Part shown: positions 12,505 through 18,939 of the stretch, one piece after another
How positions within the stretch are numbered: the stretch's first letter is position 1
How the letters are laid out: the number at the start of each line of letters is the position of its first letter
Assembly: GCA_030428885.1 (NCBI GenBank)
Contig: JAUIEJ010000014.1
Span: 1 to 64,000 of the forward strand
Source of the DNA: Gemmatimonadota bacterium
GTDB taxonomy: Bacteria > Gemmatimonadota > Gemmatimonadetes > Longimicrobiales > Gaopeijiaceae
DNA: 64,000 bases
Direction of reading: 5' to 3'
Translations under genes and position numbers: made by a program
The notes under the pieces: model-generated
Told to the model about the DNA's origin: nothing
The model's input: only the letters and a program-made list of their open reading frames with translations
The model's database searches: none

Positions 12505-14637
12505 ATGCCCCTCGCCCCTCAGGCTTCTTCCGTCGCCCGCGAGCTGTCCCTCTCCAGGAGCGACGTCGCGGCGGCCCTCGCCCTCTTCGACGAGGGCAAC
12601 ACCCTGCCCTTCATCGCCCGCTACCGGAAGGAGCGCACCGGGGGCCTCGACGAGACCCAGCTCCGGCAGGTGCAGGAGCGGGCGAAGGCCCGGGCCGAAC
12701 TGGAAGACCGGCGGGCGTTCGTGCTGGGCTCGATCCGGGACCAGGGGGCGCTCGACCCGGCGCTCGAGCAGCGCATCCGGGCGGCCGACACGCGCCAGGA
12801 ACTGGAAGACCTCTACCTACCCCATCGCCCCCGACGCCGCACCCGGGCCACCGCGGCGCGGGAGCGGGGCCTGGAGCCCCTGGCCGACCTGCTCTGGGCC
12901 GGCGAAGTCGATGACGCCGGCGCCCGGAAGGCCGCCGCTCGATTCGTCGACGCCGAGGCCGAGGTGCCCGACATCGACACGGCTCTGGCGGGCGCCCGCG
13001 ACATCGTGGCGGAGCGCATCGCCGAAGATCCGGCGCTGCGCCGGTGGGTGCGCGACGAGACGCGCCGGCGGGGCCGGGTGACGTCGCGAGTGCGCCGGCG
13101 CAAGAAGGACCTGCCCGCCGCCCAGTCGTTTCGGGACTACTTCGAGCACTCCGAGCCCGTGCGGCGCATCGCGCCCCACCGGGTCCTGGCCCTGCGCAGA
13201 GGCGAAGCCGAAGGGGTGATCTCGTGGGGCATCGAGGCGCCCGAGGAAGCGCGGGACCGGGTCGTGCGGTTCGCCGTCGACGGGCGACGGGCCCGATCCC
13301 AGCTCGAGGCCGCCGCCACGGACGGGTGGAGTCGCCTGCTCCACCCCGGCATCGAGTCCGACCTCAAGTCGGAGCTGACGGAGCAGGCCGACGACGAGGC
13401 GATCCGCATCTTCGGCACCAACCTCGAGGCGCTGCTGCTCCAGCCCCCGGCGGGCGAAAAGGTGGTGCTGGGACTCGATCCCGGCTTCCGCACCGGGGTG
13501 AAGGCGGCGGTCGTGTCGCGGACCGGCGCGCTCCTGGCCACCGAGGTGCTCTACCTTCACCAGGACCACCGCTTGAGGGATCAGGTGCGCGCCCTCGTGA
13601 AGGCCCACGACGTGGAGCTCGTGGCGGTGGGCAACGGCACGGCCTCGCGTGAGACGGAGGCGGCGGTGCGAGCCGCGCTGGATTCCGGGGGACCGCCGGT
13701 CGTTCTCGTCAACGAGGCCGGAGCCTCGGTCTACTCGGCGTCGGAGCTGGCGGTGGCGGAGTTCCCGGACCTCGACGTCTCGCTGCGGGGTGCGGTGTCC
13801 ATCGCCCGGCGTCTCCAGGACCCCCTGGCCGAACTCGTGAAGATCGAGGCCCGGGCCATCGGGGTGGGCCAGTACCAGCACGACGTGAACCAGACCCGCC
13901 TGGGCGAGCGGCTCGACCAGGTGGTGGAGACCTGCGTGAACCGGGTGGGGGTGGAGGTCAACACGGCCTCGGCGCCCCTGCTGTCGTACGTGGCGGGCGT
14001 GGGCCCGGCCCTCGCCCACAACATCGTGGCGCTGCGCGACGAGCGGGGGCGTCTGTCGAGTCGTCGGGAACTGCTCGACGTGCACCGTCTCGGCCCCGGC
14101 ACCTTCGAGCAGGCCGCCGGATTCCTGCGCATCCGCGACGGCGATCACCCCCTCGACGCCACCGCCGTGCACCCCGAGCGATACGACCTGGTGGCCCGCA
14201 TGGCCCGCGATCTCGGGGTGTCCACGGGCGAGTTGGTTCGCGACGAAGCGCTGGTGAACCGCCTCGAGGCCCGCCTCGACCGCTACGTGGCCGACGACGT
14301 GGGGCGCCCCACTCTCGACGACATCGTGGCCGAGCTCCGCCGCCCGGGTCGCGATCCGCGCGACACCTTCGAGCCCCCGTCGTTTCGCGACGACGTGCAG
14401 AAGCCCGAAGACCTGGAGGAGGGCATGGTACTCCAGGGCGTGGTCACCAACGTCGTGGCCTTCGGCGCGTTCGTCGACGTGGGGGTGCACCAGGACGGCC
14501 TCGTGCACATCTCCCAGCTCGCCGACCGGTTCGTGAAGGACGCCTCGGAGGTGGTACGGGTGGGCCAGCCGGTGAAGGTGCGGGTGCTGAGCGTCGATCT
14601 GGAGCGCGGGCGGATCGGGTTGTCCATGAAGGGGTGA
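12505..14637 (+). CDS. tex: Tex-family transcription accessory protein
   Basis: A 710-residue RNA-binding protein of the Tex/Spt6-like family. The N-terminal helical part includes FIARYRKERTGGLDE; the YqgF/RNase H-like domain begins near residue 325 (LGLDPGFRTGVKAAVV); helix-hairpin-helix motifs lie around 480-560 (SYVAGVGPALAHNIV); and an S1 domain ends the protein from about 635 (VVTNVVAFGAFVDVGV). Family members are usually 720-780 residues, so this is full length. Tex assists transcription and tolerance of stress in several bacteria. It is the first gene on the plus strand after the minus-strand VapBC pair, with 72 nt to the selenoprotein gene. Confidence 0.95.
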   Translation: MPLAPQASSVARELSLSRSDVAAALALFDEGNTLPFIARYRKERTGGLDETQLRQVQERAKARAELEDRRAFVLGSIRDQGALDPALEQRIRAADTRQELEDLYLPHRPRRRTRATAARERGLEPLADLLWAGEVDDAGARKAAARFVDAEAEVPDIDTALAGARDIVAERIAEDPALRRWVRDETRRRGRVTSRVRRRKKDLPAAQSFRDYFEHSEPVRRIAPHRVLALRRGEAEGVISWGIEAPEEARDRVVRFAVDGRRARSQLEAAATDGWSRLLHPGIESDLKSELTEQADDEAIRIFGTNLEALLLQPPAGEKVVLGLDPGFRTGVKAAVVSRTGALLATEVLYLHQDHRLRDQVRALVKAHDVELVAVGNGTASRETEAAVRAALDSGGPPVVLVNEAGASVYSASELAVAEFPDLDVSLRGAVSIARRLQDPLAELVKIEARAIGVGQYQHDVNQTRLGERLDQVVETCVNRVGVEVNTASAPLLSYVAGVGPALAHNIVALRDERGRLSSRRELLDVHRLGPGTFEQAAGFLRIRDGDHPLDATAVHPERYDLVARMARDLGVSTGELVRDEALVNRLEARLDRYVADDVGRPTLDDIVAELRRPGRDPRDTFEPPSFRDDVQKPEDLEEGMVLQGVVTNVVAFGAFVDVGVHQDGLVHISQLADRFVKDASEVVRVGQPVKVRVLSVDLERGRIGLSMKG

Positions 14638-14709
14638 GGGAGTGGCAGCGCTCTTGCATCGTAGTCGGGGCGCCTTCGTTCATTCCGCTCAGCGCGTAGG
14701 AGATCCCCC

Positions 14710-15186
14710 GTGAAGACGCTCGAACCCGGTGACCGATTCCCCTCGATGTCGGCTCCCGCCGTCGACGGCAGCCATTTCGACCTGCCCGACGACGTGGAAG
14801 GCATCCGCGCCGTGGTCGTCTTCTACCGCGGCCACTGGTGAAGCCACTGCCGTCGACAGTTGGTCGACCTGCAGGAGCACCTCGCCGAACTCGAGCAGAT
14901 GGACGCCCAGGTGATCGCCGCGTCGTCGGATCCCGCCGACCTGGCGGAGAAGGCCGCCGAGGAGTGGGGCCTGAGCTACACGGTGCTGTACGGCCTCGAC
15001 GCCGAGGCCACGTCGGAGGCCATCGGTTGCTACACGGGTGAACACGACGGCGAAGCCCACATCCAGCCGGCGAGCTTCGTACTGGACCGCGACGGGACCG
15101 TGGTGCACGCGGTGTATTCCACGGGCAAGGTGGGCCGCCTCAGCGCAGACGACGCCGTGACGGTGGTGAGCGACCTCGACTCCTGA
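14710..15186 (+). CDS. peroxiredoxin-like (AhpC/TSA) selenoprotein with in-frame TGA
   Basis: Read from the GTG at 14710 (AGGAG 7 nt upstream), the frame is a 158-residue thioredoxin-fold peroxiredoxin-like protein. Its only interruption is a TGA at 14839-14841, codon 44. The context is FYRGHW-TGA-SHCRRQLVDLQ, so the TGA stands exactly where relatives carry the peroxidatic cysteine of the F-x-R-G-x-W-C-x-x-C-R motif; the second cysteine (residue 47) is kept. The sequence continues as a normal domain to SDLDS. A bacterial SECIS-like hairpin follows the TGA at once. I conclude that selenocysteine is inserted here, giving a U-x-x-C redox site that reduces peroxides or similar substrates in the cytosol. 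Without selenocysteine insertion only 43 residues are made. A cysteine-to-stop mutation is the alternative, less likely given the hairpin and intact remainder. Proof needs selA/B/C/D elsewhere in the genome. Confidence 0.85.
14847..14874 (+). promoter_or_regulatory. SECIS-like hairpin for selenocysteine insertion
   Basis: Downstream of the in-frame TGA the RNA pairs CTGC (14847-14850) with GCAG (14871-14874) and GTCGAC (14852-14857) with GTCGAC (14863-14868), leaving a 5-nt apical loop AGUUG and a small internal bulge. The loop starts 17 nt after the TGA and contains a guanine near its beginning, matching the described bacterial SECIS geometry (loop about 16-37 nt from the UGA). SelB would bind here. 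Confidence 0.75.
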
Positions 15187-15188
15187 CG

Positions 15189-15206
15189 CGGGCTGCGTCG
15201 AGCCCG
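15189..15206 (+). terminator. GC hairpin after the selenoprotein gene
   Basis: CGGGCT and AGCCCG pair around a 6-nt loop, starting 2 nt after the stop codon. No uridine run follows, so termination would be weak or factor-dependent. Confidence 0.35.
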
Positions 15207-15575
15207 AAACGAGTCCCACCGCCATCCATCGTGTCGCCGACGGCGGCCCCGTAGCCGCAACCCGGCACGGGGCCCGCTGAGCGGACCGCGTGGCGCATCG
15301 AATACCCTATGGCTCTTCTCTACGCCACGACGGCTCCAAATTCACGGTCGCGTGTCGTTTCGCGGTGCCATACGCTCGTGTTCGCGCCACGGCGGCGAAT
15401 CGCGTCGTAGCGTGGCGGGTCGTGGCTCGACCTCGGGCCCTCCGGCTCCGGGTGTCGACAGCCCCCTCTGCAACCTCCCGCCCTCTCGTTCCGTCTAGAG
15501 CATGGGGCGGGGCCGCCGGGTGGGGGGCTTCGCCGACCCACCCTCCACGATCCCGGTTCCGGAGCCGGCCCCCGC
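15207..15575. other. non-coding gap before the first ADOP permease
   Basis: About 370 nt with no supportable gene. The only structure I see is a 7-bp hairpin (GGGTGGG at 15518-15524 with CCCACCC at 15537-15543) in the leader of the next gene. A promoter for the permease must lie here, but no clear -10/-35 pair stands out. Confidence 0.5.
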
Positions 15576-18080
15576 ATGCACGCCCTCAAGCTGGCCGTTC
15601 GCAGTCTCCTCCGCACGCCCTTCGTCACCGGCATCGCCGTGCTTTCGTTGGCCCTCGGTATCGGCGCCAACGCGGCGATCTACTCGCTGATGGACGCGAT
15701 GCTGCTGCGGTCGCTGCCGGTGAATCAGCCCGACCGCCTGGTGAACATCGAGGTGCCCGGGCCGAATCCGGGGTCCCAGTCGTGTGGACAGGCCGGGGGC
15801 TGCGACGAGGTGCTGTCGTACCCCATGCTCCGCGACCTCGAGGCGTTCGAATCGCCTTCGGTGGCGGGCGTGGCCGGCCACGTGCCCTTCGGCGCCAACC
15901 TCGCCTACGACGGGCGCACCACCAACGGACAGGCCGCCCAGGTCACGGGCAGCTACTTCCCGCTCCTGGGTGTGCGACCGGCGCTGGGACGCCTCTTCGA
16001 CGAGGCCGACGACCAGGAGATCGGGGGCCACTACGTCGCGGTGCTCAGCCACGACTACTGGCAGAACACCCTCGGAGCCGATCCCGACGTGCTGAACTCC
16101 AGCATCATCGTCAATGGCGAGTCCCTGACGGTGGTGGGAGTGGCCGCCGAGGGCTTCCGGGGCACGGTGCTGGGCGCCTCGCCCGACCTCTTCGTGCCCA
16201 TGACCATGCGCGGCGTCATGAACACGTGGTTCGACGGGTTCGACAGCCGTCGGTGGTACTGGGCCTACGCCTTCGCGCGCCTGGCGCCCGACGCCACCCT
16301 CGAGCAGGCCCAGCAGGAGCTGTCGGCGTACTACAACGGCATCATCCGCGAGGTCGAGGTCCCGCTCCAGACCAACATGACCGAAGAGCGGATGGAGCAG
16401 TTCCGCAACAAGGAGATCATCCTGGCCGAGGGCTTCCGGGGCCAGAGCAACGTCCACGAAGACGTGGAGACGCCGCTCCGGCTGCTCCTGGGCATCACGG
16501 GCCTCGTGCTCCTCATCGCCTGCGCCAACATCGCCAACCTCCTCCTGGCTCGGGGCGCGGGTCGCAGCACCGAGATCGCCGTGCGGGGCTCCCTCGGGGC
16601 CACCCGGGGCGACCTGCTGAGCCAGCTCATGCTGGAGTCCCTCATTCTCGCCGCCGCCGCGGGGACCGCGGGACTGGCGGTGGGCTGGGCCACGATCCAG
16701 ATGCTCCAGGGCTTCGTGCCACCGGAGATCCGCCAGGGCCTCGACGTGGGCCTCAACCCGTCGGTCCTGGGCTTCACCGCCGTGGTGGCCCTGGGTACGG
16801 GACTGCTGTTCGGGCTGTACCCGGCCCTCCACGCCACCCGCACCGATCTGGCCACCCTGATTCGCGCCGGCTCGGGCAAGGACTCGGGGGCCCGCTCGGC
16901 CTCCCGGTTCCGGGCGGCGCTGGTGACGGCCCAGATCGCCCTCTCCGTGGCGCTCCTGGCCGGCGCGGGCCTCTTCGCCCGGAGCCTGGCCAACGTCTGG
17001 TCGGAGGAACTGGGGCAGGACACCGATCAGGTGATCCAGTTCGCCATCGCCCCGTCCCTCAACGGGTACGGCGGTGCCGAATCCCAGATCCTCTTCGACG
17101 AAGCCGAGGCCCAGATCGCCGCCATTCCCGGCGTCACCGGGGTGGCCACGTCCATGGTGCCGTTGCTTTCGGGCAACAGCTGGGGGAACGACGTCTCGGT
17201 GGAGGGCTTCGAGTGGGAGCCCGGCGTCGACGCCAACTCGCGCTACAACGAGGTGGGGCCCGGGTTCTTTTCCATGATGGGTGTGCCCCTGGTGGCGGGA
17301 CGGGAGTTCACCACCGCCGACGGGCTCGACGCGTCGCCGGTGGCGGTGATCAACGAAACCTTCGCCCGGAAGTTCGGCCTCGAACCCCGGGATGCCGTGG
17401 GCCGTCGCATGGCCCGGGGGTCGGGCAGCGACGAGTTGGACATCGAGATCGTGGGCGTCGTGCAGGACCACAAGTACTCGGAGGTGAAGGACGACGTGCC
17501 CCCGCTCTTCATCCTTCCCCGGGCCCAGAACGAGGGGGTCGTGGCCCTCAGCTACTACGTGCGGGTGGGGATCGACGCCGAGCAGGTGATTCCCGAGATC
17601 CGCAACCGCATGGCGAACCTCGACCGGAACCTCCCCCTGGAAGACCTCCGCATGCTCGATGATCAGATCCGGGAGACGGTGGTGGTGGACCGTCTCATCG
17701 GATCCCTCTCCACGAGCTTCGCCCTCCTGGCCACCCTCCTGGCCGCCGTGGGCCTCTACGGCGTGCTGAGCTTCGCCGTGGCGCAGCGCACTCGGGAGAT
17801 CGGAATCCGCATGGCCCTCGGCGCCGGCGGCGGTTCGGTGCGGAGCCTGGTGCTGCGGCAGGTGCTGGTCATGACCGTGGTGGGCGCCGTGGCCGGCCTC
17901 GTGGCGGCCTGGTTCCTGGCGGGTCTGGCCGAGTCCCTGCTCTTCGGCATGGAGGGCACCGATCCGTTGGTCTTCGCCGCGACTCCCCTCATGATCGCCG
18001 CGGTGGCGTTCGTGGCCGGCTACCTCCCGGCGCGCCGGGCGTCGCGCGTGGATCCCATGGTGGCGCTGCGGTACGAGTAG
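15576..18080 (+). CDS. ADOP-type FtsX/MacB permease (no PadR partner)
   Basis: An 834-residue membrane protein made of two MacB-like halves. Each half has a periplasmic MacB_PCD domain and an FtsX domain: first helix near residues 15-38 (GIAVLSLALGIGANAAIYSL), FtsX core near 300-400 (LVLLIACANIANLLLARG, then RTEIAV-like RSTEIAVRGSLGAT), and a second FtsX core near 700-830 (VGLYGVLSFAVAQRTREIG). It ends PARRASRVDPMVALRYE, the family signature. ADOP permeases are usually encoded without their own ATPase, as here, and their substrates are unknown; efflux or envelope stress roles are inferred from MacB. Unlike the other five in this window it lacks a PadR gene. The ribosome site is weak. Confidence 0.9.
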   Translation: MHALKLAVRSLLRTPFVTGIAVLSLALGIGANAAIYSLMDAMLLRSLPVNQPDRLVNIEVPGPNPGSQSCGQAGGCDEVLSYPMLRDLEAFESPSVAGVAGHVPFGANLAYDGRTTNGQAAQVTGSYFPLLGVRPALGRLFDEADDQEIGGHYVAVLSHDYWQNTLGADPDVLNSSIIVNGESLTVVGVAAEGFRGTVLGASPDLFVPMTMRGVMNTWFDGFDSRRWYWAYAFARLAPDATLEQAQQELSAYYNGIIREVEVPLQTNMTEERMEQFRNKEIILAEGFRGQSNVHEDVETPLRLLLGITGLVLLIACANIANLLLARGAGRSTEIAVRGSLGATRGDLLSQLMLESLILAAAAGTAGLAVGWATIQMLQGFVPPEIRQGLDVGLNPSVLGFTAVVALGTGLLFGLYPALHATRTDLATLIRAGSGKDSGARSASRFRAALVTAQIALSVALLAGAGLFARSLANVWSEELGQDTDQVIQFAIAPSLNGYGGAESQILFDEAEAQIAAIPGVTGVATSMVPLLSGNSWGNDVSVEGFEWEPGVDANSRYNEVGPGFFSMMGVPLVAGREFTTADGLDASPVAVINETFARKFGLEPRDAVGRRMARGSGSDELDIEIVGVVQDHKYSEVKDDVPPLFILPRAQNEGVVALSYYVRVGIDAEQVIPEIRNRMANLDRNLPLEDLRMLDDQIRETVVVDRLIGSLSTSFALLATLLAAVGLYGVLSFAVAQRTREIGIRMALGAGGGSVRSLVLRQVLVMTVVGAVAGLVAAWFLAGLAESLLFGMEGTDPLVFAATPLMIAAVAFVAGYLPARRASRVDPMVALRYE

Positions 18081-18084
18081 GGCC

Positions 18085-18939
18085 ATGGCCGACGACCGGG
18101 TCCGGCGATTCGAACGCGCCGTGGAAGCTGTGATTTCGGGGGACTCCGGATCGCTTCGGATGCTTCTGGAGGAGGACCCGGCCCTGGCCCGGGCCCGCTC
18201 GTCCCGGAGCCACGGGGCGACCCTGCTCCACTACGTCGCGGCCAACGGTGTGGAAGACGAGCGCCAGCGCTCGCCGGCCAACGCCGTGGAGATCGCCGCC
18301 CTGCTCCTGGACGCCGGTGCGGAGGTGGACGCCACGGCCGAGGCCTACGGCGGCCCCTGCACCACCCTCACGCTCCTGGTCTCCAGCGCCCACCCCGCCG
18401 AAGCCGGGGTCCAGGCCGATCTCGCCGTGCTCCTGGTGCGCCGGGGCGCCGCCCTCCGGGCACCCGACGCCTCGAGCCCCGCGGCCGTGGACGTGGCCCT
18501 GGCCTTCGGATACGGCGCCACGGCCCGGCGGCTCGTGGACGAGGGAGCCGAGGTGGAGCGGCTGTCCACCGCCGCGGGCCTGGGCCTCCGCGACGAGGTT
18601 CGAACCGCCCTCGACGGTGCGAGCGCCGACGAACGCCATCGGGCCCTTGCCCTGGCCGCCGCCCATGGCCACACCGACGTGGTGAGCGACCTGCTCGATG
18701 CCGGCGAGGACCCGAACCGCTTCAATCCACCTGGGGCACACCCCCACTCCACTCCCCTCCACCAGGCCGCACTGGCCGGGCACGAAGCGGTGGTGGAGCG
18801 CCTCCTGACCGCCGGCGCCGACCCGGATCTGCGAGACCGGGTCCACGGCGGAACGGCGGCGGGGTGGGCCGCCCACGGCGGACACCCGGAGCTGGCCGCC
18901 CGTCTCGCCGGACCGGGCCGGGGCCCGGAGCCCGGTTAG
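18085..18939 (+). CDS. ankyrin-repeat protein
   Basis: A 284-residue protein without signal peptide, built largely of ankyrin repeats. Clear units are GATLLHYVAANGVEDERQ, AVEIAALLLDAGAEVDA, AAAHGHTDVVSDLLDAGEDP and PLHQAALAGHEAVVERLL. Such repeats bind other proteins; no catalytic domain is present. It begins 4 nt after the permease stop and so is probably co-transcribed with it. The 3' end overlaps the convergent dehydrogenase-like gene by 4 nt. Confidence 0.85.
   Translation: MADDRVRRFERAVEAVISGDSGSLRMLLEEDPALARARSSRSHGATLLHYVAANGVEDERQRSPANAVEIAALLLDAGAEVDATAEAYGGPCTTLTLLVSSAHPAEAGVQADLAVLLVRRGAALRAPDASSPAAVDVALAFGYGATARRLVDEGAEVERLSTAAGLGLRDEVRTALDGASADERHRALALAAAHGHTDVVSDLLDAGEDPNRFNPPGAHPHSTPLHQAALAGHEAVVERLLTAGADPDLRDRVHGGTAAGWAAHGGHPELAARLAGPGRGPEPG

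Follow-up and report, generated by a model that had tools for sequence, protein, structure and literature searches.

In 2005, peroxiredoxin-like (Prx-like) selenoproteins with a UxxC motif in place of TxxU were described from the Sargasso Sea, in a study that distinguishes published selenocysteine (Sec) peroxiredoxins, which carry TxxU, from Prx-like proteins, which carry UxxC (PMC1088965). Prx-like 1 is abundant in GOS (PMC2398784), and a 2022 review places Prx-like proteins among the predicted selenoprotein families (PMC9312934). A review of 2026 lists them 'with high confidence' among these families and gives their thiol:disulfide oxidoreductase activity as predicted only (PMC13188914). The locus described here lies in a window of 64,000 nucleotides, the whole stretch of Gemmatimonadota DNA that was analysed, and shares with the proteins of these four reports the PF00578 fold, the UxxC motif and a SECIS element placed right after the UGA. 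It differs from the published members, compared by description as their alignments are in figures, in a C-terminal AVYSxGxxGRL-type stretch, which is conserved as a feature of the subfamily to which the gene belongs. Very probably, the gene encodes a small UxxC selenoprotein with a peroxiredoxin/thioredoxin fold, of the Prx-like thiol:disulfide oxidoreductase kind; we infer both the insertion of Sec44 and the enzymatic role.

The features of the locus are collected in Table 1. The frame that opens at the GTG contains a single internal stop, the TGA at the Sec codon, and read-through yields the motif FYRGHW-U-SHC-RRQL. On the read-through product, the PF00578 (AhpC-TSA) match extends across this codon (residues 6-133, 1e-20), in agreement with the initial annotation, which had described an in-frame TGA in an otherwise intact AhpC/TSA-like frame, preceded by a ribosome-binding site. 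A Shine-Dalgarno-like AGGAG is indeed present upstream of the GTG, and the first methionine of five orthologues aligns at this start. The prediction that standard annotation would be limited to a 108-residue fragment also holds, as the TTG frame is the longest same-strand ORF visible to a standard caller. Comparison of the orthologues reveals coding constraint on both sides of the TGA (pN < pS), and most changes in the downstream half fall at third codon positions, as in coding-type evolution. A gene on the opposite strand was considered and rejected: the ORF found there is without a Pfam match, and the changes by codon position suit the forward frame. Scans for promoters and terminators found no signals, a search of the whole window against Rfam at the gathering threshold gave zero matches, and a search for viral relatives of the gene found none.

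Table 1. Features of the selenoprotein locus and its surroundings (window coordinates)
Feature	Position	Strand	Remarks
Selenoprotein gene	14710..15186	+	158 residues, Sec at 44; terminal stop TGA 15184-15186
UGA codon read as Sec (U44 of motif WUSHC)	14839..14841	+	TGA in ten orthologues, TGC in one; Cys in distant homologues
Second redox Cys codon (C47 of UxxC)	14848..14850	+	no change in an alignment of 19 sequences
Shine-Dalgarno-like AGGAG	14698..14702	+	7 nt 5' of GTG; from the sequence
108-aa TTG ORF, the product of ordinary annotation	14860..15186	+	ORF listing
Bacterial SECIS element	14847..14874	+	upper stem conserved, lower stem partly
SECIS upper stem	14852-14857/14863-14868	+	6 bp
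SECIS apical loop	14858-14862	+	AGUUG, 5 nt
SECIS lower stem	14847-14850/14871-14874	+	formed here
ORF on the opposite strand	14689-15225	-	rejected as a gene
Hairpin CGGGCT-GCGTCG-AGCCCG	15189-15206		perfect, 6 bp; starts 2 nt past terminal TGA; no T-run
Tex RNA-binding protein gene	12505-14637	+	upstream
MacB/FtsX-type permease gene	15576-18077	+	downstream
Ankyrin-repeat protein gene	18085-18936	+	downstream

Orthologues were sought in 146 relatives and then in 394 and 395 genomes from the class and the phylum, these sets overlapping. Ten orthologues from six families, 38-59% identical to the window protein, carry TGA in exactly the same codon, while one carries TGC, so that the tally of the subfamily in the sampled genomes stands at 11 TGA against 1 TGC. 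More distant homologues have TGC or TGT at this position, which is the alignment with Cys-containing homologues that the initial annotation had proposed as a check. Since TGA is normally a stop, and since the downstream 108-aa ORF has a TTG of its own, the locus could be read as a pseudogene or a frozen nonsense mutation in which the TGA terminates translation and the remainder is debris. This reading is extremely improbable, given that the same-codon TGA recurs in ten orthologues from other genera and families, that the sequence 3' of it is under coding constraint, that the locus has a conserved covarying hairpin, and that the whole Sec pathway is encoded in the genome.

The genome that contains the window (5.39 Mb, 23 contigs) possesses the complete selA, selB, selC and selD set for which the initial annotation had advised looking. 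Profile searches of the genome detect selA, selB and selD at 519, 317 and 355 bits, respectively, each above its curated cut-off, and the tRNA-Sec scores 74.5 bits, with a TCA anticodon assigned by ARAGORN. In the genomes of the other TGA orthologues, a tRNA-Sec scoring above the family cut-off occurs in 8 of 10; it was not found in the remaining two, both drafts, where genome incompleteness is probably the cause. The selenoproteome of the host genome comprises at least four genes. The selD gene (L017, G000:C15:127054-127992) is itself a selenoprotein gene, with an active-site TGA in HGAG-U-ACK and a stable hairpin 3' of the UGA; a homologue of formate dehydrogenase alpha, fdhA (L088, G000:C23:112001-112783), reads NCSRA-U-HAPTVAGL across an in-frame TGA; and a further Prx-like gene (L049, G000:C22:70404-70802) bears TGA at the site equivalent to that of the window gene. 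It might be argued that a suppressor, or a general reassignment of this stop codon, lets TGA specify Trp or Cys without any SECIS: a sense reading of TGA leaves the frame open, and the Cys codon of the homologues would fit TGA = Cys. However, TGA terminates both the window gene and the neighbouring Tex gene, tRNA-Sec, SelA, SelB and SelD are all present, and the full hairpin is seen in TGA forms only, which leaves this alternative hardly any likelihood. The internal 'stop' is almost certainly decoded as Sec, yielding a full-length redox protein.

The hairpin that the initial annotation had placed at the right distance from the TGA, and for which it had suggested a bacterial SECIS prediction, agrees with the published bSECIS model. 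This model describes a loop of 3-9 nt, a stem of 4-16 bp and a spacing of 16-37 nt, with a G within the first two loop positions and an MFE at or below -7.5 (PMC13188914). The element found here has a 5-nt loop that starts A-G-U, a 6-bp stem beginning 10 nt past the UGA and a UGA-to-loop distance of 16 nt; its 37 nt fold with an energy of -16.9 kcal/mol (z = -2.7 relative to shuffled sequences). Few relatives keep the lower stem whole, and it is therefore not claimed as an essential part of the SECIS. The window contains a single copy of the motif TGA-N10-RTCNNCAGTTGGNNGAY, which was derived from the orthologues, against an expectation of 0.00 in shuffles; this uniqueness, together with the ten TGA orthologues, rules out a chance in-frame TGA. 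The separate hairpin just past the terminal TGA (Table 1) is not a SECIS, because it is closer to that TGA than the published spacing allows.

The 6-bp hairpin is kept in all 11 TGA forms, always with 16 nt between TGA and loop and with G as the second of five loop nucleotides, and standard pairing is found in each of the 66 stem cells (6 pairs in 11 forms). The stem is preserved by compensation, with three of the six pairs changed on both sides among these forms, whose arms read GTCGAC/GTCGAC, GTCAGC/GCTGAC, GTCGGC/GCCGAC, GTCGCC/GGCGAC and ATCGCC/GGCGAT. The covariation score is matched by none of 500 shuffles, and pairing falls to 8-52% when the partner arm is shifted by 1-3 columns. Because the stem sits inside codons, the RNA constrains the protein, and residue 52 (Val, Ala or Gly) accordingly tracks the codon chosen at residue 49. 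In 28 Cys homologues, most of them distant, 0-4 of the 6 pairs form and the complete set in none; the nearest comparison is the one Cys orthologue, which retains two of the six. The initial annotation had counted strains with TGC and a lost stem against a selenoprotein. Such a combination is seen in this Cys orthologue, in whose 72% complete genome no tRNA-Sec was found, and it takes the form expected of a real selenoprotein, the stem being retained in each of the ten TGA orthologues.

Altogether, these findings are best explained by a model in which SelB, carrying Sec-tRNA-Sec(UCA), would bind the hairpin just 3' of the internal UGA and the ribosome would insert Sec there rather than terminate, as suggested by the machinery, the motif and the covarying SECIS. 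From the fold and the motif, the Sec44 selenolate would most likely attack a disulfide or a peroxide. Cys47 would then resolve Sec44 through a selenenylsulfide, and a thiol/thioredoxin system would reduce this Sec44-Cys47 bond.

The nature of the redox site bears on the class of the enzyme. In the AlphaFold2 model, with Sec modelled as Cys, mean pLDDT is 95.8 and the first long helix starts at residue 44; among solved folds, those of the peroxiredoxins Bcp4 (Z 24.0) and AhpE (Z about 22) come nearest. In sequence alignments to solved peroxiredoxins, the peroxidatic Cys is matched by C47 and the TxxC Thr by U44; the protein therefore belongs to the Prx-like (UxxC) type, with a PF00578 domain and U44-S-H-C47 in place of TxxU, and not to the classical TxxU Sec-peroxiredoxins. 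The Pro, Thr and Cys of PxxxTxxC, together with a catalytic Arg, constitute the peroxiredoxin active site. Here the Pro is Arg40, the invariant Arg of YRG, the Thr is Sec44, and the catalytic Arg position is occupied by Pro120 (Pro, Ala or Ser across the subfamily). A true Sec-dependent peroxiredoxin-type peroxidase, with Sec as the peroxidatic residue, would suit the closest folds and profiles, which are peroxiredoxins (Bcp4, AhpE, AhpC). It is nevertheless a rather improbable reading, as these substitutions at the Pro and Arg positions, the alignment of Sec to Thr rather than Cys and the published division between TxxU and UxxC all speak against it. From the sequence, the site resembles a UxxC of thioredoxin type within a peroxiredoxin scaffold. 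Thus, of the earlier description as a peroxiredoxin-like selenoprotein in which Sec replaces the catalytic cysteine, the selenoprotein and its Prx-like UxxC character stand, as does the invariant second Cys, and Sec does occupy the first Cys of a CxxC; the protein is not one of the peroxiredoxins whose peroxidatic residue is Sec, since the peroxidatic Cys of true peroxiredoxins aligns with Cys47. A more speculative proposal, which we consider possible yet on balance doubtful, is that this Sec-dominated subfamily, with Cys at the peroxidatic position, Sec at the neighbouring Thr position and hence a built-in selenenylsulfide pair, works as a selenoperoxidase or reductase that resolves itself.

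Comparison with related families places the Prx-like gene more precisely. The Sec-peroxiredoxin PrxU (TxxU) shares the AhpC/TSA fold and a Sec in the active-site loop, but its Sec is the peroxidatic residue, whereas the window protein has Cys at the peroxidatic position and Sec three residues before it; with the PrxU model NF040737 it reaches 22.9 bits, where the cut-off is 270. The SelL-related redox protein model NF040769, also of Prx-like fold, matches residues 16-88 at 32.3 bits (curated cut-off 120), and the window protein differs in having one Sec only. M. tuberculosis AhpE and S. solfataricus Bcp4 share its fold along the full length of the chain (Z 22-24; identity about 21%), with a TxxC peroxiredoxin site instead of UxxC. 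A further comparison is with L049 of the same genome, which with its relatives (L028-L049, UP[YFW]C) has the same fold and Sec position; this family is about 25-35% identical to the window protein and lacks the GRL tail. In this genome and in many relatives its members share the TGA site of the window gene and a conserved SECIS-like hairpin that lies 21 nt from the UGA and has 7 bp, including one compensated pair, and a 3-nt loop. As no NCBIfam model attains its cut-off on the window protein, the subfamily appears to be uncurated there.

The gene is flanked by the Tex, permease and ankyrin-repeat genes given in Table 1. No conserved gene neighbourhood was found among the relatives examined, where two same-genus genomes alone share neighbours; gene neighbours differ between genomes and so name no substrate or partner.

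As UxxC Prx-like selenoproteins have been on record since 2005, the finding leaves concepts unchanged; in practice, it provides a corrected model for a gene that standard annotation shortens. It also contributes a clean case, complete with covarying SECIS, of a small Prx-like subfamily whose members in the sampled genomes nearly always encode Sec and which is ready for an annotation rule.
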